This document shows, piece by piece, positions 2,688 through 16,795 of a stretch of 21,385 bases of DNA. The position numbers were made by a program, and so were the translations under genes. The notes beneath the pieces were generated by a model that had not been told where the DNA came from, searched no databases, and saw nothing but the letters and a program-made list of their open reading frames with translations. The stretch is from a virus. Each line of letters opens with the position of its first letter. The stretch's first letter is position 1. Location: positions 1-21,385 of IMG/VR virus record IMGVR_UViG_3300047369_000620; one strand, written 5' to 3'.

Positions 2688-5600
2688 ATGGCATACGCGA
2701 TTCAAAGAAGAAGAGGTACGTCCACAGAACATAATTCCTTTACAGGTCTTGTTGGTGAAATCACGATTGATACTACCAATAACACCATCCGAGTTCACGA
2801 CGGTAGCACGGCTGGTGGTCATAGACTTGCGAAATACTCAGAAATTAACACGCAAGAGAACATCGAAGATGCGGTAAGTGGTTTACTTACAGCAGGTTCG
2901 GGTATTAGTTTATCATACGATGATGCCGCAGGCACATTAACAATTACTAATACAACCTCAGCGGGTGATATCGAAGCAGTAACGGCAGGAGATGGTTTAA
3001 GTGGAGGCGGTACTAGTGGAGCAGTTTCATTAGCACTAGACCTTAATGAACTAACAGCCGCGGCAGTAGATGTAAGTGCAGACAGCATTGCAATTATTGA
3101 CGCAGGTGACAGTAGTTCGAAGAAAGAAAGCATAGCAGATTTGGCTACAGCAATGGCTGGAACAAATTTAACAGCATCATCAGGAACATTAGGATTTGCT
3201 GACTCAGTAATGGATGCTAGAATTAGCAACGCAATTAAAGATGAAGATAATATGGCTAGTGATAGTGCTACTCATGTTCCTTCACAGCAGTCAGTTAAGG
3301 CTTTTGTTGCTTCACAAATAGCAACTAAAGACAATACAGATGAAATGACAGAAGGTTCAACTAACCTTTACTTCACAAATGCTAGAGCCAGAGGTGCTAT
3401 TAGTGTTGGTGGAGATTTAGCATACAACAGTGGCACAGGTGTAATTAGTTTTACTAACGACGCAGGTGATATTGAAGGTGTTACTGCTGGAGACGGTTTA
3501 ACAGGCGGCGGTACAACAGGTACAGTCGGTCTAAACATAGGACAAGGTACAGGTATTACTGTAAACGCAGATGATATAGCAGTAAACATGGGTGCCTTCG
3601 ACACAGATAATTTAAGCGAAGGTTCAAGTAACCTTTATCATACAACAGCAAGAGCCAGAGGCTCAGTTAGTGTTACTGACGCAGGCGGAGACGGAAGTCT
3701 TGCTTACAACAGTACATCAGGTGTTATTACTTACACAGGCCCAAGTGCCGCAGAAGTTAGAGCACATCTAACTGCAGGTGACGGTTTAGATGTTAGTAGT
3801 GGTTCATTCTCAGTAGATAATACTGTAGTTAGAACAAGTGGTACACAAAGTATTGCTGGTGCTAAAACATTTAGTAATGACATAGTCGTTTCAGGTAACT
3901 TAACAGTTAGCGGAACACAAACAACGGTCGCAACAGAAACTTTAACTGTTGATGACAACATGATTGTTCTTAACAACAACGAAGCAGGTACTCCTTCACA
4001 GGACGCAGGTATTGAAGTTGAAAGAGGAACATCAACTAACGTTAAATTCCAATTTAAAGAAAGTACAGATAGATGGCAGTTTACAAATGATGGTTCAACA
4101 TTCTTTAATTTACCAACAAGTACAGCCGATGTTGCAGAAAATACTAATTTGTATTATACAAATGCTAGAGCAGATGCTAGAATTACAGCGGCACTTATTG
4201 ATGAAGATAATATGGCTTCTAATAGTGCTACTAGACTTCCAAGTCAGCAAAGTGTTAAGGCATACGTCGATGGACAAACAACTGACGAAACAGCAGAAGG
4301 TTCAAGTAACTTATACTATACCGATGCTAGAGTTAAAAATTACTTAGGCGGTGGTTCGTTTGATGGGCATATTATTCCAAGTGCTAACATTACATATGAC
4401 TTAGGTTCATTAGCGAAGCAATGGCGAGACATATACGTTGGTCCAGGATCTTTATACGTTAACGGACAGCAAGTGTTATCTGATAACTCAGGTACAATTA
4501 CTGTTAGTGCGGACACTAACCAAAACATTAGTGTTATTTCAACAGGTTCAGGTGATGTTGAACTTACGGCGGGTGGAGCAATTCAACTTAAATCAGACAT
4601 TACTCTAACAACTAATAAAACAATTAGTTCAACAGGTGGTGTTAAGTTTGCTTCAAACGTAAACATGAACAGTAACAACATTAACAACCTAGATGATCCG
4701 GTTGCGAACCAAGATGCGGCTACTAAAGCCTATGTTGACGCAACAGCACAAACAACTGAAGAAGTACAAGATATAGTAGGTGCTTTGATTAGTGGTAGTG
4801 GAAATATTTCTGCTACATACAATGATTCAGCAGGTACTTTAGTAATTAGTGAAGCATTAACAACTACAGATATTACCGAAGGCGACAATAAGTATTTCTC
4901 AAATGCTAGAGCCAGAGGTGCTGTTTCAGTAACAGACGCAGGTGGTGATGGTAGTTTAGCATACAATAGTACATCAGGTGTTATTACTTACACAGGGCCA
5001 AGTGCTTCTGAAGTAAGAGCACATTTAAGTGGTGGAACAGGTATTACTTATAATAGTAGTACAGGTGTTATTACTACTACAGATGGCGATATTGATATTC
5101 ATAATTTAAGTGGATATGTTGCTAACGAACATATTGATCACTCAGGTGTTAGTATTATAGCAGGAACTGGTTTAACTGGTGGTGGAACAATAGCCGCAAG
5201 TAGAACTGTAAACGTTGGTGCTGGTACAGGTATTACTGTAAACGCAGATGACGTAGCAGTAAACATGGGTGCCTTTGATACAGACGATTTAAACGAAGGC
5301 TCTACAAACTTATACTTTACTAACGAAAGAGTAGACGACAGAGTTAACGCATTGATCGTAGACGGAAACGGTATTGACGCAGTTTATGACGACGCCGCAG
5401 GAACTTTAACATTATCAACACCATCAGGTACTGCTGGTAATGGTTTAACTTACAGTTCAGGTGTTATTAACGCAGTTGGCGGAGACGGTATTACAGCAAG
5501 TGCTAACAGTTTAGACTTAGACAGTTCGGTTGTTAGAACAACTGGTACACAAACAATAGCAGGTGCTAAAACGTTTAGTGACGCAGTAGTAATGAACGGC

Positions 5601-6905
5601 GACTTAACTGTTAACGGTACAACAACTACAGTTAATTCTACAACAGTTTCAACAGGTGACAACATTATTATTCTTAATAGTGACGTTACTGGTACACCAT
5701 CAGAAGATTCTGGTTTTGAAGTTGAAAGAGGCGACAGCACTAATAAGCAATTCCTATGGAAAGAGTCTACTGACAGATGGTTAGCAGATGCTCCATTAGA
5801 TGCTACAGGTTATTACATTACAGGCGTAGGCGAAGTAATTAATAGTTCAGGTGCGTGGACTGGCTCAAGTTCAGGACTTAAAGGTGAAGTTGGACCAACT
5901 GGACCACAAGGACCACAAGGTAACATAGGACCTCAGGGTGCTACAGGACCTCAAGGTGCTCAAGGACCACAAGGAACTGCTGGAGATAAAGGTGCCACAG
6001 GTGCTACAGGACCTCAAGGTGCTCAAGGACCAGCAGGATCAAACGGATCAAATGGTTCAGACGGTGATAAGGGACAAAAAGGTGAAGTAGGTGCTCAAGG
6101 ACCGCAAGGTAATACAGGTGCTCAAGGCTCTACTGGTGCTAAAGGACAGAAAGGTGAAATTGGTGCTCAGGGACCACAAGGTGCCACTGGTCCTACAGGG
6201 CCACAAGGTAACCAAGGTGGACAAGGTGCTCAAGGACCACAGGGACAAAAAGGTGCTACTGGAACCACAGGTGCTACAGGACCTCAAGGTGCTCAAGGTG
6301 GACAAGGTCAGAAGGGTGCCACAGGTGCTCAGGGTGGACAAGGTGCTACTGGACCAACAGGACCATCAGGTAATCCATTCCCAGGCGGTACATTTAGTGG
6401 TGATATAACTACTAGAAACATTATTGCTACAGGACCTTCAGGAACTTATAACATCGGATCAAGTAGTGTTAAATTCGGAACCATGTATGCTAATACCTTT
6501 AACGGTACAGCAACATCGGCTCAATATGCGGATTTGGCAGAAAGATACGAAGCAGATAAGCCTTTAGAACCAGGTACAGTAGTGTGCTTTGGTGGTGATA
6601 AAGAAGTAACAGCATGTGCTCAAGAAGGACATCATAGTGTAGCAGGTGTAGTTTCGACTAACCCGGCTCACTTAATGAATGCCGAAGCAGGCAGTGAGGC
6701 AACTCACCCAGCAATAGCATTAGCAGGAAGAGTTCCTGTTAAAGTAGTTGGACCAGTACACAAAGGTGACTTATTAGTAAGTTCCGGTGTTGAAGGTCGT
6801 GCTAAAGCAGACAACGATGCTAAAGCAGGTAGAATCCTTGGTAAAGCAATGGAATCAGCAGGCGACGGAGAGCATGTAATTGAAGGACTGATTAACTTAA
6901 TGTAA
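2688..6905 (+). CDS. Large tail fibre protein with Mtd-like N-terminus and collagen-like shaft
   Basis: A 1405-residue structural fibre. The start is fixed by a good ribosome site (TAGGAGAA, 2673-2680). Residues 1-48 resemble the Mtd N-terminal domain: RRRGTSTEHNSFTG, then GEITIDTTNNTIRVHDG and GGHRLA. In phages this domain attaches receptor-binding proteins to the baseplate. Then come beta-rich modules with repeated EGSTNLYFTNARARG-type units, and twice a module with VERG and KESTDRW. A collagen-like Gly-X-Y shaft spans about residues 1064-1228, and the C-terminal domain ([32 protein letters not shown]) is shared with the upstream fibre. Internal duplications are visible in the DNA (see repeats). 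It follows a late promoter and leader and ends at a strong terminator. Assignment as a fibre is firm; its place on the virion is inferred. Confidence 0.9.
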   Translation: MAYAIQRRRGTSTEHNSFTGLVGEITIDTTNNTIRVHDGSTAGGHRLAKYSEINTQENIEDAVSGLLTAGSGISLSYDDAAGTLTITNTTSAGDIEAVTAGDGLSGGGTSGAVSLALDLNELTAAAVDVSADSIAIIDAGDSSSKKESIADLATAMAGTNLTASSGTLGFADSVMDARISNAIKDEDNMASDSATHVPSQQSVKAFVASQIATKDNTDEMTEGSTNLYFTNARARGAISVGGDLAYNSGTGVISFTNDAGDIEGVTAGDGLTGGGTTGTVGLNIGQGTGITVNADDIAVNMGAFDTDNLSEGSSNLYHTTARARGSVSVTDAGGDGSLAYNSTSGVITYTGPSAAEVRAHLTAGDGLDVSSGSFSVDNTVVRTSGTQSIAGAKTFSNDIVVSGNLTVSGTQTTVATETLTVDDNMIVLNNNEAGTPSQDAGIEVERGTSTNVKFQFKESTDRWQFTNDGSTFFNLPTSTADVAENTNLYYTNARADARITAALIDEDNMASNSATRLPSQQSVKAYVDGQTTDETAEGSSNLYYTDARVKNYLGGGSFDGHIIPSANITYDLGSLAKQWRDIYVGPGSLYVNGQQVLSDNSGTITVSADTNQNISVISTGSGDVELTAGGAIQLKSDITLTTNKTISSTGGVKFASNVNMNSNNINNLDDPVANQDAATKAYVDATAQTTEEVQDIVGALISGSGNISATYNDSAGTLVISEALTTTDITEGDNKYFSNARARGAVSVTDAGGDGSLAYNSTSGVITYTGPSASEVRAHLSGGTGITYNSSTGVITTTDGDIDIHNLSGYVANEHIDHSGVSIIAGTGLTGGGTIAASRTVNVGAGTGITVNADDVAVNMGAFDTDDLNEGSTNLYFTNERVDDRVNALIVDGNGIDAVYDDAAGTLTLSTPSGTAGNGLTYSSGVINAVGGDGITASANSLDLDSSVVRTTGTQTIAGAKTFSDAVVMNGDLTVNGTTTTVNSTTVSTGDNIIILNSDVTGTPSEDSGFEVERGDSTNKQFLWKESTDRWLADAPLDATGYYITGVGEVINSSGAWTGSSSGLKGEVGPTGPQGPQGNIGPQGATGPQGAQGPQGTAGDKGATGATGPQGAQGPAGSNGSNGSDGDKGQKGEVGAQGPQGNTGAQGSTGAKGQKGEIGAQGPQGATGPTGPQGNQGGQGAQGPQGQKGATGTTGATGPQGAQGGQGQKGATGAQGGQGATGPTGPSGNPFPGGTFSGDITTRNIIATGPSGTYNIGSSSVKFGTMYANTFNGTATSAQYADLAERYEADKPLEPGTVVCFGGDKEVTACAQEGHHSVAGVVSTNPAHLMNAEAGSEATHPAIALAGRVPVKVVGPVHKGDLLVSSGVEGRAKADNDAKAGRILGKAMESAGDGEHVIEGLINLM
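3661..3770 (+). repeat. Internal fibre module, copy 1 (partner 4921-5030)
   Basis: It encodes SVTDAGGDGSLAYNSTSG followed by VITYTGPSA and EVRAHL. The copy at 4921-5030 encodes the same peptide with one visible change (A to S). The first half of the DNA differs at many silent sites, while the second half, from AGTACATCAGG onward, is almost identical. This is an intragenic duplication, possibly partly homogenised. Confidence 0.8.
4921..5030 (+). repeat. Internal fibre module, copy 2 (partner 3661-3770)
   Basis: Second copy of the SVTDAGGDGS...GPSASEVRAHL module. A further shared block, encoding GTGITVNADD and AVNMGAFDTD, occurs at about 3545-3620 and again at about 5222-5300. Together these suggest that the fibre grew by module duplication. 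Confidence 0.75.
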
Positions 6906-6972: not shown

Positions 6973-6980
6973 GATAAATA
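6973..6980 (+). promoter_or_regulatory. Late promoter octamer GATAAATA before the curli-like operon
   Basis: GATAAATA followed by CACTT, the same element as at 2535, placed directly after the terminator. The predicted transcript start is near 6986, about 60 nt before the first gene. No other promoter-like element is seen before 12050, so the overlapping genes 7045-12046 are probably one late transcript. Confidence 0.7.
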
Positions 6981-7044
6981 CACTTGTAGAGAGTAACAGA
7001 ACACACACCCTACAGATACAATATAACAGAGTGTGGAAAATTTT

Positions 7045-7341
7045 ATGGAAGATATCTTTAAATTGATAGCAGAGGTAGGAGCACCGATTGCCGGTAGTTT
7101 GGTGATGGGTTTTTTTATATTCTTAGTTATAAAACAAATAATGGAAGGTATAGTAGATCAAGTTAAGACCTTAACTGGATTTTGTAAGATGCTCGAATCA
7201 AGAGCAAGTACAATGAGCAATGAAATGATGAAAATTGATTTACTTGTGAGTAGTGCTTTAGAACTCAGACCCGATATAGAACGAATCGCCAGAGCAGAAA
7301 ACTTTGTTGAGGATGGTAAAGTCGACGCGAGGAGAGATTAA
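7045..7341 (+). CDS. Small membrane protein with coiled coil, holin-like architecture (A)
   Basis: 98 residues from the ATG at 7045. A GTG at 7033 would add four residues, but the ATG gives better agreement with the downstream paralogue; neither has a strong ribosome site. One hydrophobic segment (about residues 10-32, GAPIAGSLVMGFFIFLVI) is followed by a helical, charged region likely to form a coiled coil. It is the first gene of the curli-like operon, and its stop TAA overlaps the next ATG by one base. It aligns along its whole length with the next protein (LI..G.P, FIF, then a methionine-rich helix), so the two are probably paralogues forming a membrane complex. Small phage proteins of this shape include holins and holin-like peptides, but no family is recognised with certainty. 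A curli accessory role is also possible. Confidence 0.75.
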   Translation: MEDIFKLIAEVGAPIAGSLVMGFFIFLVIKQIMEGIVDQVKTLTGFCKMLESRASTMSNEMMKIDLLVSSALELRPDIERIARAENFVEDGKVDARRD

Positions 7342-7637
7342 TGGATGTAGGACAACTGATTAATGATTACGGTTTTCCAGTTGTTATGGCAGTAGGGTTA
7401 GGTTACTTTATATTTTATATTTGGCGATTTATAGGCGAACACATTGATCCAGCATTAGCAGAAATGCACATAGCATTAATTAGAGTAATTGATAAAACTA
7501 GAATGCTTGATCAAGATATGATTCGCTTACAGCAAAAAGTTAATGTTGTTTTGGAATACAAAGCAAGACAACAAGTTTTAGAAGAGGCTAAACAAAAAGA
7601 AGCACTTCGTAAACAAGAGGAAATGGAGGAAGAATGA
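7341..7637 (+). CDS. Small membrane protein with coiled coil, holin-like architecture (B)
   Basis: 98 residues. The N-terminal hydrophobic segment (about residues 11-30, YGFPVVMAVGLGYFIFYIW) recalls the YGFP-plus-transmembrane start of small holin-like peptides of the YvrJ/BhlA type. The rest is a long charged helix ending in a Glu/Lys/Gln-rich tail (residues 70-98), which should form a cytoplasmic or periplasmic coiled coil. It overlaps the csgF-like gene by ATGA. Its similarity in length and pattern to the preceding protein suggests a gene duplication and a heteromeric pair. Function is not established. Position just before outer-membrane pore genes makes a role in envelope passage or lysis plausible, but this is inference. 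Confidence 0.75.
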   Translation: MDVGQLINDYGFPVVMAVGLGYFIFYIWRFIGEHIDPALAEMHIALIRVIDKTRMLDQDMIRLQQKVNVVLEYKARQQVLEEAKQKEALRKQEEMEEE

Positions 7638-8134
7638 AAAAAGTTACAGGAACACATTTAGGTATAATGGTAATGATAACATTTTTTGTAGGTCAATGTT
7701 ATGCGGATGAAATTAAGTTTAAATTTAAAAGTCCTAGTTTTAGTGGTCAAGGAACTGGTGCTCATTATTTAACAATTGAGAACCAAGAAAAATCACGTAG
7801 AGACAAGATAAAGGAAGATATAGAAGCCGCACTTGCCAGAGCAGAAAGGGAAAACGAAAACTCAACAATTAACAAGTTCATTAGAAATTTAGAGAGTAGA
7901 ATTTACAGTCAAATTTCTAAGGGCCTCGTTGATAGTATGTTTTGTGACCCAGCAACGGTTATAACATGTACAAACTCTGATGCCGGTAGTTTTGAAATAG
8001 AGGGCAACACAGTTACATACGTTAAAACAGTAAATGCGGATGGACTAGAAATAATTAAACTGACTATTGTAGATCCAGACGGTACTATTACTGAAATTGA
8101 AATACCAATTGGAATAGGTAATATAGGCGGGTAA
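7634..8134 (+). CDS. csgF: Curli assembly protein CsgF-like
   Basis: 166 residues with a signal peptide (cleavage likely after CYA, residue 24). The mature N-terminus, FKFKSPSFSGQGTGAHYL, matches the E. coli CsgF start (TFQFRNPNFGG), the part that plugs into the CsgG channel. A helix follows (INKFIRNLESRIYSQI, matching LDNFTQAIQSQI), then a C-terminal beta region ending in VDPDGTITEIEIPIG (matching VTDRKTGQTSTIQV). Between these lies a charged insertion not present in E. coli CsgF. CsgF forms the outer ring of the curli pore and couples secretion to nucleation. Its stop overlaps the csgG start (TAATG), keeping the F-G pairing. Two cysteines (CX7C) are unusual for the family. Start supported by AGGAGG-like bases just upstream. 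Confidence 0.85.
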   Translation: MKKVTGTHLGIMVMITFFVGQCYADEIKFKFKSPSFSGQGTGAHYLTIENQEKSRRDKIKEDIEAALARAERENENSTINKFIRNLESRIYSQISKGLVDSMFCDPATVITCTNSDAGSFEIEGNTVTYVKTVNADGLEIIKLTIVDPDGTITEIEIPIGIGNIGG

Positions 8135-9165
8135 TGAATTATAAAAACTTGATCTTGTTATTTGCAGGAACGGTGTTATTTACTGGTTGTGCCAGCATTT
8201 CAATTCCCGGTGATCAAGCATGTCAAACAGATTTTTTAGAATGTGTTGAAGAGCCAAAACAAGTTGAATTACCGACTTATAGAAAACTCAGATACTTACC
8301 ACCAAGCAAACAAATGCCAGTGGTAGCAGTATATAATTTTACAGACCAAACAGGACAAAGAAAAAGTCAAGACGGAGTTGCTAGTTTTAGTACAGCAGTT
8401 ACGCAAGACGCAAAAAGTTTATTAATAGACGCTCTTAAAGCCGCAGGTTCAGGAGATAATCCAAAAGGAACATGGTTTAGAGTTGTCGAAAGAGGACTTG
8501 GACTAGATCATTTAGTCAGAGAAAGGCAGATAGTACGAAGTACTCGATCTGAACAGGCCAAAGCGGAAGGTTTAGAAGAGTTCCAAGAACTACAGCCAAT
8601 GTTATTTGCTGGAATGATATTAGAAGGTGGTATTATAGGATACGACACTAATGTTGAAACAGGAGGTAACGGAGCAAGATATCTTGGTATTGGTACAACA
8701 AATCAATACCGTAGAGATAGTGTGACAGTATCATTAAGAGCCGTAAGCACACTCACGGGTGAGGTGATACTGAATGTACAGACATACAAAACCATTTTGA
8801 GTACTGGTCAAGCAGGTGATGTATTCCGATTTTTAGATATGGATACAAAATTGCTTGAATTGGAAAGTGGTATGACAGAAAACGAAAGTGTAACATTCGC
8901 AGTAAGATCAGCGATCGAAGCCGCGGTGTTATCCTTAATAGAGCAAGGTGACGAGAGAGGATACTGGAAGATTGTTTACCCTGACGATTGGGATGAAGTA
9001 GTAGCCGCACAAGAACAGGCATACTGGATGAAACTCAACTCAGAAAATCTTTTAACGGACGCGGAAAAAGTGGGCAACGTTAGTGATCCTGAGTCACAAC
9101 CTTTATGGAAGAAAATACTTCTTAAAGGTGAAACCAATATTGGAGATATAAAAAATGAAGACTAA
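8134..9165 (+). CDS. csgG: Curli secretion channel lipoprotein CsgG
   Basis: 343 residues. A lipoprotein signal ends at Cys19 (VLFTGC). The CsgG core is unmistakable: VAVYNFTDQTGQ, FSTAVTQDAKSLL, WFRVVERGLGLDHLVRER, GGIIGYDTNVETGGNGARY, LGIGTTNQYRRD, TYKTILS, VFRFLD and the final SAIEAAVLSLI...GYW. CsgG is the nonameric outer-membrane channel that exports curli subunits. Compared with E. coli the constriction loop keeps the Phe corresponding to Phe56, but Asn55 is replaced by Ser and Tyr51 by a polar residue, with a one-residue insertion. An N-terminal linker (about 25 residues, with a CX6C pair) and a C-terminal tail of about 55 residues are additional to the E. coli protein (277 residues). 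It overlaps the curlin gene by 11 bases. CsgG homologues are known from marine T4-like phages, as far as I recall. Confidence 0.95.
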   Translation: MNYKNLILLFAGTVLFTGCASISIPGDQACQTDFLECVEEPKQVELPTYRKLRYLPPSKQMPVVAVYNFTDQTGQRKSQDGVASFSTAVTQDAKSLLIDALKAAGSGDNPKGTWFRVVERGLGLDHLVRERQIVRSTRSEQAKAEGLEEFQELQPMLFAGMILEGGIIGYDTNVETGGNGARYLGIGTTNQYRRDSVTVSLRAVSTLTGEVILNVQTYKTILSTGQAGDVFRFLDMDTKLLELESGMTENESVTFAVRSAIEAAVLSLIEQGDERGYWKIVYPDDWDEVVAAQEQAYWMKLNSENLLTDAEKVGNVSDPESQPLWKKILLKGETNIGDIKNED

Positions 9166-9979
9166 GAATTTAATTAAGAATTTTGTAGTAAATGTCTTCG
9201 CTATTGTAGGGGTGTTGATAGCAAGTCCATCTCTTGGTGCTACAGATAACGAAGTGTTATTAGACCAAGAAGGTAATAACTTGATATTAACAATTTTACA
9301 AGCAGGTAGTGGAAACCAAGTTTCCGGCGATGCGAGTGCCGGATCTGACTTGATTGTAACAGGTGCCAGTTTAATAATTGACATCATACAAGACGGTGAT
9401 AGCAACAAACTATACGGTGATTTAATACTTGATGGAAACGGTTCAAGTGTATTAGATTTTTACCAATTAGGTGATAGCAACGTCTGGGATCTACAAATCG
9501 GCGCACAAGGAAATAGTGCTGACTATACAGACATGTTAGTAGACATACAAGGTGACAGCAACATATTTAATGTTGATATAGCCGGAAATGCTACAGCAGA
9601 AAGTTTAAACTTTGATTTAGTTATACTTGGAGATAGTAACGACTTCTCAACAAGTTTTACTAACAGCAAAGTTTGGGCGGCACAAGGACAAGGCGAATCT
9701 TGTGGCACAAACTGTACAGGGTCAAGTGCTATGGCAGGTATCGTAATCGATACAAGTTCCGTTGTGTGGAACATGGATATTGATGGCGGTAATAACGCCT
9801 TTGCTACTAAGCAAAGCGGTAATTCGGGTCATAGTTTAACAGTAGTGTTAGACGGTAGTAATGGGGACTTTCAATTTGTCCAGGATATGGCCGCAACGTG
9901 TAATCCAACCTGTGAAGGGATAATAGATGTAAACCTAGATAGCGAAAATGCGTCAGTTAGTATTAAGCAGACAGACTAA
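9155..9979 (+). CDS. Curlin-repeat secreted protein (CsgA/CsgB-like)
   Basis: 274 residues with a signal peptide (cleavage likely near SPSLGA, residue 29). The mature protein is low in charge variety and rich in Gly, Ser, Asn, Asp and Gln. It has irregular repeats built on LxxxQxGxxN and GDSNxxxxxI, for example LTILQAGSGNQ, IDIIQDGDSNK and LDFYQLGDSNV, the hallmark spacing of curlin repeats that form amyloid beta-strands. The end, ASVSIKQTD, resembles the CsgB end. No N22-type targeting peptide of CsgA is seen: repeats start directly after the signal peptide. Two CX3C pairs (GESCGTNC, ATCNPTC) are unlike cysteine-free E. coli CsgA. Directly following csgF and csgG, it is the likely export substrate. 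Which of the two curlins acts as nucleator cannot be told. Confidence 0.82.
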   Translation: MKTKNLIKNFVVNVFAIVGVLIASPSLGATDNEVLLDQEGNNLILTILQAGSGNQVSGDASAGSDLIVTGASLIIDIIQDGDSNKLYGDLILDGNGSSVLDFYQLGDSNVWDLQIGAQGNSADYTDMLVDIQGDSNIFNVDIAGNATAESLNFDLVILGDSNDFSTSFTNSKVWAAQGQGESCGTNCTGSSAMAGIVIDTSSVVWNMDIDGGNNAFATKQSGNSGHSLTVVLDGSNGDFQFVQDMAATCNPTCEGIIDVNLDSENASVSIKQTD

Positions 9980-11117
9980 CTGGTTAGCAGTATGTTTACT
10001 GTTATTAACATTCGAGAGTGCCGCTAATGAACCAATTGGCGGCATAATCGAACAAAGCGGAAAGGCAGGCAGTATAGTTCGCCTTTCAGGAGAAGAATTA
10101 AAAGCAAATTTGGAAGCCGATATAGTTAGTTACGATGAAGTAGAAACAGAAAACGGTAGACTTAAAATAGAATTTGTTGATAGTACACAGGTAAGTTTGA
10201 CAGAACACACATATATGGAGATAGACGAATACGTTTATGATCCAGACCCGAGCAAAAGTAAGATGGCTCTTAATTTTGTTCAAGGTACAGCAAGATTTGC
10301 CACAGGCGGATTAGGCTTAGTACCTAAAGAAAATATACAGATACAAACTCCTACTGCCAGTATTGGTATCAGGGGAACAGATTTTACTACTACAGTTGAC
10401 GAACTGGGTAGAAGTTTAGTTATATTGTTACCAGATGAAAACTGTGACGATAGGGTTAAACTTGAAGAAGGTTGTAGACCTTCAGGAAGTATTACAGTTA
10501 CAAACGACGGCGGAACCGTTGTACTAGATGAGGCATATCAGGCAGTTATGGTAAGCACATTTGAAACTAGTCCAACACAACCTGTCGTACTTGTTGATCT
10601 AGACTTAAACATGATTGATAACATGTTTATTGTTAGTAAGCCAGAAGAAATAGTAAAGGCAGAGGAAGAACAACAAGAGCAATTAAAAGGAGACGGTGGA
10701 CTGCTAGACTTTGACGGATTGGACGAAAATGCTATCGAGCAAGACGCATTAGCAGATACCACAGAAGATTTAGAATTTACAACATTAGATATAAATTTTT
10801 TAGATGTTGATTTTTTGAAAGACTTATTAGAAGTTATAGAAACTGAAGTCGATATATTAGCAGAAGATGGCGGTGACGGAGGCGGTAATAACAAACTAAT
10901 AGGCGCGGTGTTTGGTGCTAATCCAGATAACCAATTTAATATTATACCAGACTTAGACGGAAAAGTATTTTTCCTAAGACAGGCGAGTAATACAATTAGT
11001 ATTAAATTAACAAGAGGTTCACAAGCACAATTAGATATCAGAGATAGCGATATGGGAGATAATATTATATGTTTAAGCAGTTGTGAAAACATTATAATTA
11101 CTATTACACAAGAATGA
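9948..11117 (+). CDS. FecR-domain periplasmic or secreted protein
   Basis: 389 residues, with a start 32 bases inside the preceding gene and no strong ribosome site. A signal peptide (about residues 1-26, LAVCLLLLTFESAAN) is followed by a FecR domain: GKAGSIVRLSGE, then FVDSTQVSLTEHTYMEIDEY, LNFVQGTARFATGG and TPTASIGIRGTDF (to about residue 150). A strongly acidic, low-complexity region (about residues 230-315) follows, then a C-terminal beta-rich stretch ending IICLSSCENIIITITQE. That ending resembles the last residues of both flanking curlin-repeat proteins. In bacteria FecR domains are periplasmic sensors or surface modules, and FecR genes are often near CHASE2 adenylate cyclases, one of which is encoded at 14891. 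Its place between two curlin genes suggests co-export through CsgG or a role in fibre anchoring, which is inference. Confidence 0.85.
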   Translation: MRQLVLSRQTNWLAVCLLLLTFESAANEPIGGIIEQSGKAGSIVRLSGEELKANLEADIVSYDEVETENGRLKIEFVDSTQVSLTEHTYMEIDEYVYDPDPSKSKMALNFVQGTARFATGGLGLVPKENIQIQTPTASIGIRGTDFTTTVDELGRSLVILLPDENCDDRVKLEEGCRPSGSITVTNDGGTVVLDEAYQAVMVSTFETSPTQPVVLVDLDLNMIDNMFIVSKPEEIVKAEEEQQEQLKGDGGLLDFDGLDENAIEQDALADTTEDLEFTTLDINFLDVDFLKDLLEVIETEVDILAEDGGDGGGNNKLIGAVFGANPDNQFNIIPDLDGKVFFLRQASNTISIKLTRGSQAQLDIRDSDMGDNIICLSSCENIIITITQE

Positions 11118-12046
11118 ATTTAGACGAAAAATTAAAAAATATGAAACCAAAAGATACGCCCTTATTAGTATTAGGTTACATAATGCTAGGCATGATGTTG
11201 TTATTAAGTACAACAGCAAAAGCCGACGACCAAGAAATAATATTAGAACAAGCAGGTGATGATGTTATTATTCAAACAATTCAAGAAGGATATGATAATT
11301 TAATTAATGTAGACTTAGGAATTGTTAGTTCAGACTCCTCAAATAATATTTTTAGAGTATTACAAGACGGGTTCGATAATGAAGTAAACTTTAGTCTTGA
11401 CGGACAATCTAACGAGATAGCCATATTACAAGAAGGTAATAATCAATATATTGGTTATTCAAGTATATGGGGAGAAGGACACGACCAAGGTGGAGATATT
11501 GACGGTGATAGCAACACATTAAAATTATGGCAAAAATGTAGTTGGTCAAGTTGTAACGAAAATAAAATAGAATTTCACGTAGAAGGTGATAACAATGATG
11601 TCGAAGTTGCTCAAGGATGGTTCTTAGATAAAAACTCCAATAACGGTAATACTAACTGGAGTTATGACTACACTGAACCAGGTGGTAATTTAGTAAGAGT
11701 AGACATACACGGCGACAATAATGATTTTAAAGCAGGTCAAAAACAAGATAGTGCCAGTGTAAATCACAATATGTATGTAAACATATTTGGTGACGGTAAC
11801 GAAGTTTATGCTGGACAAATACAGAATGGAAGCAAAACATTAAACTTAAATATCTACAATGATAATAATGAAGTTTATATAAAACAAAGAAAAAATGGTG
11901 CTCATTCGGCAACTATAAATTTGTATGGAACTTATGGCACAGATTTATATTTAAACCAAGGACATAATTCAGTAGCACAAACATATTCAATAACACAAAC
12001 CTGTGTAACAGTAGGTGGATGTAGTATCTCAGTTACACAAGATTAA
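11114..12046 (+). CDS. Second curlin-repeat secreted protein (CsgA/CsgB-like)
   Basis: 310 residues overlapping the FecR gene by ATGA. A longer signal peptide with a charged N-region (KLKNMKPKD) and a hydrophobic core (about residues 18-33) ends near TAKA. Curlin-type repeats follow at once: IILEQAGDD, IQTIQEGYDN, FRVLQDGFDN, IAILQEGNNQ, and later units of the form GDNNDFKAGQKQ, GDGNEVYAGQIQ and DNNEVYIKQRKNG. The Gln and Asn spacing is that of amyloid strand-loop-strand repeats. Cysteine pairs occur in KCSWSSC and TCVTVGGC. The protein ends SISVTQD, comparable to the last residues of the two upstream proteins. It is the last gene of the operon; no terminator is seen before the sigma70-type promoter that starts four bases after the stop. 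Likely substrate of the CsgG/CsgF pore. Confidence 0.82.
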   Translation: MNLDEKLKNMKPKDTPLLVLGYIMLGMMLLLSTTAKADDQEIILEQAGDDVIIQTIQEGYDNLINVDLGIVSSDSSNNIFRVLQDGFDNEVNFSLDGQSNEIAILQEGNNQYIGYSSIWGEGHDQGGDIDGDSNTLKLWQKCSWSSCNENKIEFHVEGDNNDVEVAQGWFLDKNSNNGNTNWSYDYTEPGGNLVRVDIHGDNNDFKAGQKQDSASVNHNMYVNIFGDGNEVYAGQIQNGSKTLNLNIYNDNNEVYIKQRKNGAHSATINLYGTYGTDLYLNQGHNSVAQTYSITQTCVTVGGCSISVTQD

Positions 12047-12049
12047 CGG

Positions 12050-12078
12050 TTGACAACCATATCTATTTGCTATATAAT
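12050..12078 (+). promoter_or_regulatory. Consensus sigma70-type promoter (TTGACA-N17-TATAAT)
   Basis: Perfect -35 (TTGACA, 12050-12055) and -10 (TATAAT, 12073-12078) hexamers with the ideal 17-base spacer. Predicted +1 is near 12085-12087, on or next to the ATG at 12087. In T4-like phages such promoters are read by unmodified host polymerase early in infection, so the small membrane genes that follow are probably early genes embedded between late units. Confidence 0.85.
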
Positions 12079-12865: not shown

Positions 12866-12873
12866 GATAAATA
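12866..12873 (+). promoter_or_regulatory. Late promoter octamer GATAAATA before the lipoprotein gene
   Basis: GATAAATA in the short gap after the gene ending at 12859. Predicted start near 12879, about 50 nt before the lipoprotein ATG. Together with the terminator at 13377-13402 it defines a compact single-gene late unit. Confidence 0.65.
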
Positions 12874-12927
12874 TATTATGTTATAATAACAGATGGTTTT
12901 ATAACAATCTTATATATAGGAGAAGAT

Positions 12928-13248
12928 ATGAATATATTAAAATCTTTCTTCGTAGTTTTATGTTCAGCCGGTTTTGTAGGTTGCGCCTCAGTTGGAGGTG
13001 TTTGGAACGCAGGAACAGAAGTTGTCACAGGTACTGTTGATGCAGTAGTTGGCGGAGCGGCTACAATAACAACAGCAGTTGCTGATGATGTTGTATCTGT
13101 TGGAACTTTAGCAATTGATACAGCACAGACTGTGGTAGTTGCTGGAGCAGACCTTGGTAAAGGTGTTGTAAAAACAGTTTCTGATGAAGTCGACAGACAA
13201 ACAGACGAATTACAAGACGAGGACAAAGACGAACCAAAAAAGGATTAA
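12928..13248 (+). CDS. Small lipoprotein with candidate -1 frameshift site at its end
   Basis: 106 residues with a strong ribosome site (AGGAGAAG) ahead of the ATG. The signal peptide ends in a lipobox at Cys19 (GFVGC). The mature protein is an Ala/Val/Gly/Thr-rich repetitive helix or beta stretch (about residues 25-85: VVTGTVDAVVGGAA and similar) followed by a very acidic/basic tail (DELQDEDKDEPKKD). No family is recognised. The last codons contain the slippery heptamer A AAA AAG (13236-13242), a 6-nt spacer and a hairpin (13249-13269). A -1 shift would replace the last residue by 40 others and give a 145-residue protein ending in CKKNPKECE. The gene has its own late promoter and terminator. 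It could be an envelope or lysis-associated lipoprotein; this is not shown. Confidence 0.8.
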   Translation: MNILKSFFVVLCSAGFVGCASVGGVWNAGTEVVTGTVDAVVGGAATITTAVADDVVSVGTLAIDTAQTVVVAGADLGKGVVKTVSDEVDRQTDELQDEDKDEPKKD

Positions 13249-13435: not shown

Positions 13436-13918
13436 ATGAAGCAAATACTTTTATTACTACTAATGTTACCCTCAGCCATTATAGCACAAGAAAGTACATT
13501 AACAAAGTTTAATTTAGAATATAAGATGCCGATAGATTACAGATATTGCGATTCTAATCCTGTGGAATGTAGACCATTGCCAAGCAGGATACCAAAGTTT
13601 GATATCCAAGAAAGACCCGATAATAAAGAATGGGCAATGTTTTGGACATTACAAATACTAGATATCTATACAACATCTAAAGCATTAAAGTACGACTGTA
13701 TAAAAGAAATAAATCCATTGTTTACTGAAACTCCGAGTGACACAAGATTAGTATTAACTAAAACTATGTTACTTGCTCCTGGATTATTATCAAACGATTA
13801 TTACAAAGAGATTAGTACCAGAGAACTAGAAAATACTAATATTATGTACATGTTTGTAGTTTCTAATAATTATAGATTACTACACGATGCCAAACAAACC
13901 TGTAACAAAATAAGATAA
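13436..13918 (+). CDS. Predicted exported protein of unknown function (DUF5658-like motif)
   Basis: 160 residues with a signal peptide (residues 1-17, MKQILLLLLMLPSAIIA). The mature part has a YCDSNPVECRPLP segment (CX6C) and a region WTLQILDIYTTSKAL, then KEINPLF and TKTMLL. This resembles the D-x-x-TT...E-x-NPL pattern of small membrane proteins of the DUF5658 type, though the match is only a motif. Two more cysteines (YDCIKE, QTCNK) lie toward the C-terminus, giving four in all, consistent with disulfides in an oxidising compartment. There is no Shine-Dalgarno motif; a late-promoter-like octamer places the predicted +1 on the ATG. It stands alone between a terminator and the FNR operon. 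Function unknown. Confidence 0.72.
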   Translation: MKQILLLLLMLPSAIIAQESTLTKFNLEYKMPIDYRYCDSNPVECRPLPSRIPKFDIQERPDNKEWAMFWTLQILDIYTTSKALKYDCIKEINPLFTETPSDTRLVLTKTMLLAPGLLSNDYYKEISTRELENTNIMYMFVVSNNYRLLHDAKQTCNKIR

Positions 13919-13932: not shown

Positions 13933-14652
13933 GTGTTAAAAGAAAAAGTTATAGAAATCAAACACTATTCAGATAGACTATTCAGTTTTAAAACTACAAG
14001 AGACAAAAGTTTTAGATTTAAGAATGGCGAATTCTGTATGATTGGGTTAGACTTAGAACCTAAAAAGATAATGAGAGCATACAGTATTGTAAGTACAAAT
14101 TACAATGACTATTTAGAATTTTTAAGTATTAAAGTACCCGACGGACCACTGACAAGCAAATTACAGAATTTACAAATAGGAGACGAAGTATTAATTAATC
14201 CAAAAGTTACAGGCAGTTTAGTATGTGATTATCTGTATCCTAAGGATAATTTAATATTGTTAGCAACAGGAACAGGCGTTGCTCCTTTTATGAGCATTGT
14301 AAATGACCCAGCAACGTATGATAGATTTGGGTTTGTATACTTGTTTCATACCGTAAGAAACATCAACGAATTAACTTACATAGAATCGCTAAATACTATT
14401 GAAGAAGAATTACCATTTACATATATCCCAACTGTAACAAGAGAAGATTATGTAAGGCCTGGCCGTTTTTGGCAGTATGTTGAAGACTACTTACCAGGTG
14501 GGTTCCTCAAAGAAAGAGACGGCATAATGGTATGCGGTTCTCCTGAAATGAATAAAGAATGTCGTACTATGTTTAAAACACTAAATTGGCAAGAAGGCAA
14601 TACAGGTGAAATGGGCGACTTCATGTTAGAAAGAGCATTCGTAGATAAATGA
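13933..14652 (+). CDS. fpr: Ferredoxin/flavodoxin-NADP(+) reductase
   Basis: 239 residues, GTG start. It transfers electrons between NADPH and ferredoxin or flavodoxin using FAD. Family motifs are clear: the FAD-binding RAYSIVS (residues 48-54), the NADP-binding ATGTGVAPFMSI (residues 111-122), the CGSPEMN motif (about 200-206) and the bacterial-type C-terminus ERAFVDK, like the AFVEK end of Azotobacter and Rhodobacter enzymes. Length is slightly under the usual 255-275. It lacks a Shine-Dalgarno motif and starts five bases after a late promoter octamer. It overlaps the next gene by ATGA. No ferredoxin or flavodoxin gene lies in the window, so it probably uses a host partner or one encoded elsewhere. 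A phage copy could redirect host redox power to nucleotide reduction or other synthesis, which is inference. Confidence 0.92.
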   Translation: MLKEKVIEIKHYSDRLFSFKTTRDKSFRFKNGEFCMIGLDLEPKKIMRAYSIVSTNYNDYLEFLSIKVPDGPLTSKLQNLQIGDEVLINPKVTGSLVCDYLYPKDNLILLATGTGVAPFMSIVNDPATYDRFGFVYLFHTVRNINELTYIESLNTIEEELPFTYIPTVTREDYVRPGRFWQYVEDYLPGGFLKERDGIMVCGSPEMNKECRTMFKTLNWQEGNTGEMGDFMLERAFVDK

Positions 14653-14894
14653 GTTCACAGAAAATTATCGATGCCTTGCAAAAGGGCGTGATTACTATTG
14701 TATTTAAAAAAATTGGCACAGGTGAAATTCGCACAATGCCGTGTACACTAAACAATGACATATCAAAGCAAACATTACAAATAAAAAAATATTCTAGTCC
14801 AGATGCTGTAATATGCTGGGGACTAGATGTAGGAGCATGGCGTGATGTTAGAGTAGATACTATCATAGAATGGTACGAAGGATATCCCAAGTGA
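14649..14894 (+). CDS. DUF2693-like small phage protein
   Basis: 81 residues between the reductase and the cyclase, overlapping each by four bases (ATGA and GTGA). The pattern VITIVFKKIGTGEIRTMPCT, later CWGLDVGAWRDVRVDTIIEW, resembles phage proteins of the DUF2693 group (VxFxKxDGxxRxMxCTL and WDxxxxxWRxFRxDxI), a small predicted beta-barrel whose function is not known. Similar proteins are common in T4-like marine phages. The operon position reveals no role. A family search would settle the assignment. Confidence 0.7.
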   Translation: MSSQKIIDALQKGVITIVFKKIGTGEIRTMPCTLNNDISKQTLQIKKYSSPDAVICWGLDVGAWRDVRVDTIIEWYEGYPK

Positions 14895-16795
14895 AATGGT
14901 TGTATAGTGGCTATGCTGTAATAGTTTCAATTTTATTACTTACAGCACTTAAAGTAGCAGACCCTACGCCACTAGAGAATATACGAAATCAAACATTTGA
15001 TTCTTATCAGCAACTAGATGAAATTAAACAAAGCAATGACGTTGTTTTATTAAACTTCGGCGAAAATACTTTAGCAACATATGGTCAGTATCCTTTCCCT
15101 AGACAATACTATGCCCAACTAATTGTAGATGTTGCTAGTAAAAACTCGGGTGTACTAGGTTGGACATTAATGTTTCCAGAAGAAGATAGGTTTGGTGGCG
15201 ACGACAGTTTTGCTAGTATTCTAAATCAAAACTTAGTTAATGTACCTGGTGCTAGACGTAACCCGATAAATTATAATGTTCTTAGCCAAACACCAAGTAG
15301 CAAAGGTATTAAAACAAGTGGACCACATATAGGCACGGGTACAATTGGACCTGTTCCAGCAACAGACTTTTTACTTACATGGAAAAATCTAGTAACAAAT
15401 GTTCCTATGTTAGAAGTAGTATCAAACGGAAAAGGCGTTAATGCCTCCGCACCGCAACCAGATTTTGTAACAAGAACATACCCATTAGCAATAGGTGTAG
15501 AAAATAAAATATATCCTAGTTTTGCTATAGAGATGTTAAGGGTTAAAACTGGACAAAAAAGTTATAAAATTAAAACAAGCGAAATAGGTATACAAGAATT
15601 TATGGTTAAAGGGTTCGAACCTTTTGTAACACAACCTGACGGTACAGCATATATACGTTTTAATAATACATTCGAAGAAATAGAATACACAGGAGCAGAA
15701 AGCATACCAGACTTAGGCGGTAAACTAGTAATTGTAGGTGTTACAGCAGAGGGTATTGCTAACCCTGTACCTACTCCAAGAGGCAACCTCTATCCACAGC
15801 ATATACACGCACACATGCTACAAAATATGATTGATGGTACCAATATAACCCGTAACCAGTTATCGCCGCTTATAGAACTTCTGTGTGCGTTGTGTGGCAT
15901 GATTTTAATAGCCATCGCGGTGTATAGATTGCCTTTACTGTGGACAGCACCTATTTCACTGCTGATTTTAGGTGGAGAAGCATACGGTAGTGTGTGGCTA
16001 TATCAAAATAAATTACAATTAGTAGATGCTACTTTTCCTGTGATAAGTGGCTTTTTGATTTTCACACAATCAGCATTTAATAATTTCTACAAACAATACA
16101 AATTACGACAACAAATTAAAGGACAGTTTGGTACTTACATATCCCCGGACTATGTTGATATGTTAGTTAAAGATCCTAGTTTAATGAAACTAGGTGGCGA
16201 AAGAAAAGAAATGAGTTTCATGTTTGCTGACATAGTCGGCTTTACGCCCATATCAGAAAAGTACATGAAAGCAGATGACCCAGAAGGATTAGTAGAACTT
16301 ATAAACAGTTTCTTAGATAAAATGACAAAAATAGTTTTGAAGAACGGTGGTACAATAGACAAGTTCATGGGCGACTGTATAATGGCATTTTGGAACGCAC
16401 CTTTACCATGTGAAAATCATGCTGAGATGGCCGTTAAAACAGCGATAGAAATTGAACTACTTGGTGACGAACTAGAAAAAGAAATGGAAGAACGTGGCCT
16501 GCCAAGAGTGAAATTTGGTACAGGTGTAAATACTGGTACATGTATTGTTGGTAACATGGGTGCTGAAACAAGATTAGATTATAGTGTTGTAGGCGATGCT
16601 GTAAACTTAGGTGCTAGATTAGAAGCACAAACAAGAGCAGAAGATACACCAATTATTGTTTCTGAATATACATACTTACAATGTAGTGATATAGCATTTA
16701 GTAGCATAGGCGAAGTTACTGTAAAAGGTAAAGAAGAGCCTGTTAGAATGTATGCTCCATTGTTTGATGGTGCGGTTAGAAAACTTTACAAGTAA
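14891..16795 (+). CDS. Membrane adenylate cyclase with CHASE2 sensor domain
   Basis: 634 residues from GTG at 14891, which has GAAGGA eight bases upstream and a GTGA overlap; an ATG at 14870 would add seven residues but lacks a ribosome site. An N-terminal membrane segment (about 4-20) is followed by a periplasmic CHASE2 domain (about 25-320), three membrane segments (about 326-395) and a class III cyclase domain (about 430-620). All catalytic positions are present: metal-binding Asp in FADIVGFT (codon 16229) and in DKFMGD (codon 16373), adenine-selecting Lys (16361) and Asp in RLDYSVVGD (16577), and the transition-state Asn and Arg in VNLGARLE (16604 and 16616). It should therefore make cAMP from ATP in response to an envelope signal. 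It is co-transcribed with FNR under a late promoter. Such an enzyme is very unusual in a phage. The gene abuts the convergent gene at 16796 with no gap. Confidence 0.93.
   Translation: MKWLYSGYAVIVSILLLTALKVADPTPLENIRNQTFDSYQQLDEIKQSNDVVLLNFGENTLATYGQYPFPRQYYAQLIVDVASKNSGVLGWTLMFPEEDRFGGDDSFASILNQNLVNVPGARRNPINYNVLSQTPSSKGIKTSGPHIGTGTIGPVPATDFLLTWKNLVTNVPMLEVVSNGKGVNASAPQPDFVTRTYPLAIGVENKIYPSFAIEMLRVKTGQKSYKIKTSEIGIQEFMVKGFEPFVTQPDGTAYIRFNNTFEEIEYTGAESIPDLGGKLVIVGVTAEGIANPVPTPRGNLYPQHIHAHMLQNMIDGTNITRNQLSPLIELLCALCGMILIAIAVYRLPLLWTAPISLLILGGEAYGSVWLYQNKLQLVDATFPVISGFLIFTQSAFNNFYKQYKLRQQIKGQFGTYISPDYVDMLVKDPSLMKLGGERKEMSFMFADIVGFTPISEKYMKADDPEGLVELINSFLDKMTKIVLKNGGTIDKFMGDCIMAFWNAPLPCENHAEMAVKTAIEIELLGDELEKEMEERGLPRVKFGTGVNTGTCIVGNMGAETRLDYSVVGDAVNLGARLEAQTRAEDTPIIVSEYTYLQCSDIAFSSIGEVTVKGKEEPVRMYAPLFDGAVRKLYK

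Follow-up and report, generated by a model that had tools for sequence, protein, structure and literature searches.

A candidate curli export module with a secreted FecR-domain protein in a marine phage genome fragment

Why would a phage carry a curli channel together with its own proteins to send through it? Phages with curli modules are found widely in the sea. We examined this question in the IMG/VR virus record IMGVR_UViG_3300047369_000620, a 21-kb fragment of 21,385 bases that was analysed as a whole (the window). A first-pass annotation had described an operon at 7634-12046 encoding CsgF, CsgG, a curlin-repeat protein (curlin 1), a FecR-domain protein and a second curlin-repeat protein (curlin 2), and the list of open reading frames (ORFs) places all five genes there, overlapping as described. 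As boundaries these coordinates are too narrow: the conserved unit also takes in two small membrane protein genes upstream (tmA and tmB, 7045-7637) and a CHASE2 adenylate cyclase gene downstream (14870-16795). With moderate confidence, we read this locus as a self-sufficient, late-expressed type VIII (curli) export module in which the FecR-domain protein acts as tether or nucleator.

Related gene sets are found in other marine phages, and the kind of system is already known. A curli operon has been described in pelagimyophages along with the idea of 'sibling capture' (Zaragoza-Solas 2020; PMC7029224), and the full module with FecR, cyclase and a gene labelled 'HK' has been reported in pelagipodophages and pelagimyophages (Wittmers 2022; PMC9599517). 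Genes for curlin, CsgG and CsgF, as in the window, have been reported from a marine T4-like virus with a predicted Bacteroidetes host (Tominaga 2020; PMC7198788). The methylophage Melnitz is a further published carrier of the operon, and a pinholin-like function has been suggested for it (Buchholz 2022; PMC9004378). New here are the phage lineage, a late-type promoter element, a reinterpretation of the FecR protein, cellular FecR-cyclase operons without tmA and tmB, and leading genes without a kinase domain. The first-pass annotation had missed the promoter element, the two leading membrane genes and the cyclase and had overlooked the published phage operons; its observation is confirmed here and its interpretation supported in part.

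Channel, substrates and gene order

All genes of the module lie on the plus strand. The predicted outer-membrane lipoprotein channel CsgG (8134-9165) matches PF03783 (E=5e-48) and E. coli CsgG (E=4e-45, residues 45-280 aligned), with about 60 extra residues past the C-terminal end of the E. coli match. Its lipobox cysteine, Cys19, is invariant among homologues; the constriction-loop tyrosine of E. coli CsgG is not conserved in the alignment. CsgF (7634-8134), the putative pore cap in the outer membrane, matches PF10614 (E=1.5e-10) and starts with a signal peptide followed by the pore peptide FKFKSPSFSG. This pore-inserting N-terminal peptide is near-invariant in 27 homologues and among the most conserved parts of the protein. 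Both Pfam matches are above the cut-off, in agreement with the direct homology to CsgG and CsgF claimed earlier.

The two candidate substrates are secreted repeat proteins. As a single sequence, curlin 1 (9155-9979) matches Curlin_rpt with E=0.025, under the Pfam cut-off, and curlin 2 (11114-12046) has no relevant Pfam match. With its family profile, curlin 2 does find solved curlins: 8c50 (E=1.4e-9) and CsgA of E. coli (8enq, E=4e-5). No curlin was found in the Protein Data Bank (PDB) with the profile of curlin 1, and the profiles of the two curlins align with each other at 99.8% probability (hhalign). Both proteins contain repeat-type motifs above composition shuffles. Profile searches, which had been suggested as a check on the locus, have therefore returned both a CsgF match and curlin matches. 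The AlphaFold2 (AF2) model of curlin 2 is beta-solenoid-like, with evenly spaced strands (pTM 0.76), and a Foldseek search of this model against the PDB gave no convincing match, the best being SufB (TM ~0.3). The curlin assignment consequently rests on sequence profiles.

Two short genes open the module. tmA (7045-7341) encodes a 98-aa protein with an N-terminal transmembrane segment and a probable coiled coil; its homologues begin at the ATG at 7045, and the ORF list has a GTG at 7033. tmB (7341-7637) is its tandem paralogue, also of 98 aa, and both belong to phrog_18771. A 'histidine kinase' label had been given to an upstream gene in the pelagiphages (PMC9599517). Assuming that the genes are equivalent, we find it unsupported for tmA and tmB, which are ~100 aa long and show no HisKA or ATPase Pfam match across 44 family members. 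At the other end of the module, the cyclase (14870-16795) combines a periplasmic CHASE2 sensor (PF05226, E=4e-29) with a class III catalytic domain (PF00211, E=2e-20) whose catalytic motifs are intact.

To follow the module across phages, we gathered 145 viral loci in addition to HTVC008M and Melnitz; some overlap, as they come from the same contig, and not all are independent. The synteny survey proposed with the original description finds the order tmA, tmB, csgF, csgG, curlin 1, fecR, curlin 2 and then the cyclase kept across 149 phage loci, with variable cargo genes between curlin 2 and the cyclase. tmA and tmB occur in 122/122 loci having enough upstream DNA and the cyclase in 49/49 having enough downstream DNA. 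Every gene tested is under purifying selection (omega ~0.04-0.25), the curlins and FecR included, as well as the pore.

The closest known system is the type VIII module of pelagiphages such as HTVC008M and Melnitz, which has upstream small genes, CsgF, CsgG, curlin, FecR, curlin and adenylate cyclase in identical order and a CsgG ~42-47% identical to that of the window. The window differs from it in phage lineage, in its separate, well-supported CsgG clade (support 100/97) and in the extra cargo ahead of the cyclase. With E. coli curli (CsgBAC/DEFG) it shares the CsgG channel, the CsgF cap and repeat substrates, and differs by the added FecR and cyclase and by components not found: as had been stated before, no CsgE, CsgC or CsgD is seen, here among the 20 larger ORFs scanned of a 21-kb fragment.

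The FecR-domain protein

The gene at 9948-11117 encodes a protein whose sole Pfam domain is FecR (PF04773, E=5.6e-11, above the cut-off), confirming the family assigned to it earlier. It consists of a signal peptide, a FecR domain (~30-202), an acidic disordered linker (~205-315) and a beta-rich C-terminal domain (317-389). In the AF2 model (mean pLDDT 73.9, pTM 0.48) a helix spans residues 2-20, corresponding to the signal peptide, the FecR domain starts at residue 30 and the acidic linker is of low confidence. The C-terminal domain has six strands (pLDDT 84-91) with ~20-residue spacing per pair.

We considered and rejected the identity of a FecI-type iron (ferric citrate) regulator. In such a protein a cytoplasmic anti-sigma region comes first and a transmembrane helix next, and neither is present in a chain with its helix at 2-20 and its FecR domain starting at residue 30. 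The layout is different in a regulator-type FecR paralogue from a Caulobacteraceae genome, which has a long N-terminal region ahead of its transmembrane helix. We conclude that the protein is a secreted FecR-domain protein and not a FecI-type iron regulator.

Foldseek matches the FecR domain to PupR, to anti-sigma FecR domains and to the anchoring domain of an RTX adhesin (5ix9), the last with a TM of 0.76 by target length, 1.2 A and 26% identity. The sequence profile also reaches 5ix9, weakly (residues 29-104, E=0.1). The retention modules of RTX adhesins (MpAFP 5ix9; LapA) resemble this protein in the fold of the N-domain and by a weak sequence match, and they have a similar build, in which a long linker joins a folded N-domain to an exported C-part. 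They use a TolC-type channel as opposed to CsgG here, and we take this as a resemblance only, not as membership.

The other end of the protein recalls the curlins. A C-terminal I-x-I-x-Q motif is found in 70/86 FecR homologues, 58/80 curlin 2 and 35/81 curlin 1 sequences, compared with 12/3,650 other ORFs. A match of the full-length FecR protein to a curlin was set aside, as it covered just 21 columns at 13% probability. From the domain layout and the shared terminus, we propose that FecR anchors or seeds the curli fibre.

Promoter elements, phage lineage and relatives

Elements of the type [GTC]ATAAATA are the form of T4-type late promoters. At the head of the module, before tmA, such an element (GATAAATAC, 6973-6981, plus strand) is conserved: [GTC]ATAAATA is present in 65 of 77 distinct tmA upstream sequences, against a mean of 3.15 in dinucleotide shuffles, and does not occur ahead of the internal genes tmB, csgG and curlin 1. 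In the window GATAAATAC has three copies (0.32 expected), each ahead of a gene start: one precedes the second tail fibre gene, one tmA and one, on the opposite strand, a virion protein gene. The window has no exact copy of the T4 late promoter TATAAATA, and GATAAATA is the variant that this lineage carries in its place. Because the element has the form of a late promoter, the curli module is probably transcribed together with the virion genes.

A perfect sigma70 promoter sequence, TTGACA-17-TATAAT, lies directly after curlin 2 (12050-12078, plus strand) and is the sole 12/12 match in the scanned region; its position is kept in 17/75 relatives. It is the probable start of a second expression block, so that the cargo genes, and perhaps the cyclase, would be expressed separately. 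For the late-type and the sigma70 elements alike, we infer promoter function from sequence.

The phage that carries this module appears, by its genes, to be a marine relative of the PA5oct/GAP32/Phosso jumbo phages, another myophage lineage than that of the earlier curli phages. The tail sheath stabiliser of the window has its best matches, at 35-39% identity over the full length, in PA5oct-like Pseudomonas phages, Sinorhizobium phage Phosso and Agrobacterium phage Atu_ph07, and its NUDIX and virion-protein neighbours match those found in the same phages. The NUDIX and sheath-stabiliser neighbourhood recurs on ~27 other contigs. Relatives of the module are found on large contigs, reaching 250 and 340 kb, with a gp23 divergent from the pelagimyophage type; on the 340-kb contig this gp23 shares 70% identity with PA5oct. 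With tail-fibre genes on one side and tail sheath stabiliser genes on the other, the module lies within a T4-like virion gene region, which supports the earlier description of a channel and its own curlin-type substrates in that setting. A literature search on jumbo phages and curli found no report for this lineage; most subscription papers and preprints were outside its coverage. Among deposited phages, CsgG matches were limited to HTVC008M, the Melnitz strains and one 1.5-kb Salmonella phage record. This record (OR851715.1, Salmonella phage S.Kent 1-2-1, 1,499 bp) holds an unannotated csgG-like gene and is possibly bacterial DNA filed as phage.

Most cellular curli loci that we found have no FecR, cyclase or tmA/tmB in the flanks examined. 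Three carry csgF, csgG, curlin(s), FecR and cyclase, all on one strand: two Caulobacteraceae metagenome-assembled genomes (L156 and L157) and Hyphomonas TMED17 (L158, on a 705-kb contig). The FecR proteins of L156 and L157 end in a C-terminal motif identical to that of phage FecR. The three loci differ from the phage module in having their curlin genes ahead of FecR and in the absence of tmA and tmB, which were found in phages only and in none of the cellular curli loci examined. In the CsgG tree all phages and these three cellular loci form one group (support 100/99), with the cellular loci nested inside. Further loci filed under Bacteroidota, Planctomycetota and other groups (L149-L155, L159-L161) were rejected as cellular, since they carry tmA/tmB and are probably misbinned phage contigs. 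Other phage genes back this assignment for some of them only; L151, for example, has T4-like replication genes.

Several further genes surround the module in the window. A small lipoprotein (12928-13248, plus strand; lipobox read from the sequence) is a frequent neighbour (55 loci), and its place as a module member is uncertain. It is preceded by the putative late promoter element GATAAATAT (12866-12874, plus strand), and such elements occur in 30/31 lipoprotein upstream regions. The protein encoded at 13436-13918 starts like a signal peptide and matches DUF5658 near the threshold; it recurs in 47 loci, in differing places about the module. A ferredoxin-NADP reductase-like gene (13933-14652, NCBIfam E=1e-33; 18 loci) lies between the curli genes and the cyclase, and a small WYL_2 domain protein (14649-14894) overlaps both the reductase and the cyclase genes. 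Upstream are two large tail fibres with collagen triple-helix repeats (2-2512 and 2688-6905), of which the second has an N-terminal domain of the Mtd type as well as a late-type promoter element of its own at 2535.

Possible functions of the module

In the reading that we favour, CsgG and CsgF would build an outer-membrane channel in the infected cell, through which unfolded curlins would exit to give surface fibres. The folded N-domain would keep FecR periplasmic while the disordered linker presents the beta-rich tail to the channel, where the protein would tether, seed or cap the fibre, replacing CsgB and perhaps the missing CsgE gate. The CHASE2 cyclase may read the periplasmic state, perhaps through free FecR, and make cAMP. 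The fibres would most likely act on the surroundings of the cell near lysis, keeping host cells or virions in clusters or protecting the cell against rivals; what the phage gains from them is a guess. The purposes offered by the first-pass annotation, namely capture or clumping of neighbours, retention of virions, a block to superinfection and a breach of the outer membrane, are likewise conjectures. As a more specific and rather doubtful extension, FecR might be a new kind of amyloid anchor, a periplasmic plug under CsgG whose linker passes through the channel and whose tail nucleates or holds the fibre, with the cyclase sensing plug occupancy. Such an arrangement would be common to phages and a few bacteria and, in phages, would stand under a late promoter with two phage-specific membrane proteins.

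Four observations weigh against a fibre export module with FecR as its tether. No clumping was seen in Melnitz-infected cultures (PMC9004378). CsgE, a gate that E. coli has but not every curli system, was not found among the window ORFs scanned. The likeness to 5ix9 may reflect the general FecR fold, and anti-sigma FecR domains score better. Finally, when the profile of the FecR C-terminal domain was compared with those of both curlins, homology was not significant past the last seven residues, so that the link between FecR and the curlins depends on the motif at the end of the chain and on the fold predicted for the tail.

Among the alternatives, one that we regard as possible is compatible with fibre export: FecR would be a purely periplasmic ligand of the CHASE2 cyclase that reports secretion or envelope state, with no anchoring role. 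FecR adjoins the cyclase in the cellular curli operons, and S. meliloti CyaD1 without its CHASE2 makes cAMP constitutively, in a study of cAMP and Clr that also examined the FecR-domain protein SMc02177 (PMC5498481). This would leave the curlin-type terminal motif and the beta-rich tail of FecR unexplained.

Use of the pore to breach the outer membrane at lysis, also offered by the first-pass annotation, is weakened by our results and we consider it unlikely. CsgG, with or without CsgF, would depolarise or open the envelope in the pinholin-like manner proposed for Melnitz (PMC9004378), with tmA and tmB as holin-like partners. The late-type promoter element fits, as do the small membrane proteins adjoining csgF: tmB weakly matches the holin family phrog_4898 (E=0.003), a weak, short-segment match shared by 8/44 tmA/tmB family members (best E=1e-4). 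Yet selection constrains the curlins and FecR to the same degree as the pore, and the pore peptide of CsgF is conserved too. CsgG belongs to the outer membrane, and lysozymes are encoded elsewhere on related jumbo contigs. Moreover, the Melnitz proposal was based on absent curlins, whereas the Melnitz GenBank record (L003, MZ577097) annotates FecR and two curlin-repeat genes beside csgFG, though the paper says that the fibre genes are lacking.

It is less probable still that an ungated CsgG admits nutrients, siderophores or cofactors to the infected cell, an idea raised in PMC7029224 and PMC9599517 with which the missing CsgE gate would agree. Such an uptake channel would leave CsgF and two conserved secreted curlins unexplained, a late-type promoter fits a metabolic helper poorly, and the FecR protein is without iron-regulator features. 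A place for the curlins and FecR in the virion, as late structural proteins or as proteins associated with the tail fibres, is hardly probable at all. The module does have late-type promoter elements and is flanked by tail-fibre genes and tail sheath stabiliser genes, but all three proteins have signal peptides, an outer-membrane export channel stands alongside and T4-like virions are assembled in the cytoplasm.

Taken together, the presence of a curli module in another large-phage lineage, where the gene order is the same and the late-type promoter element is conserved, suggests that the module works towards the end of infection and not as a metabolic aid. FecR as a fibre anchor rather than an iron regulator is a specific, testable claim and, if true, would also explain the FecR-cyclase pairs of some bacterial curli operons.

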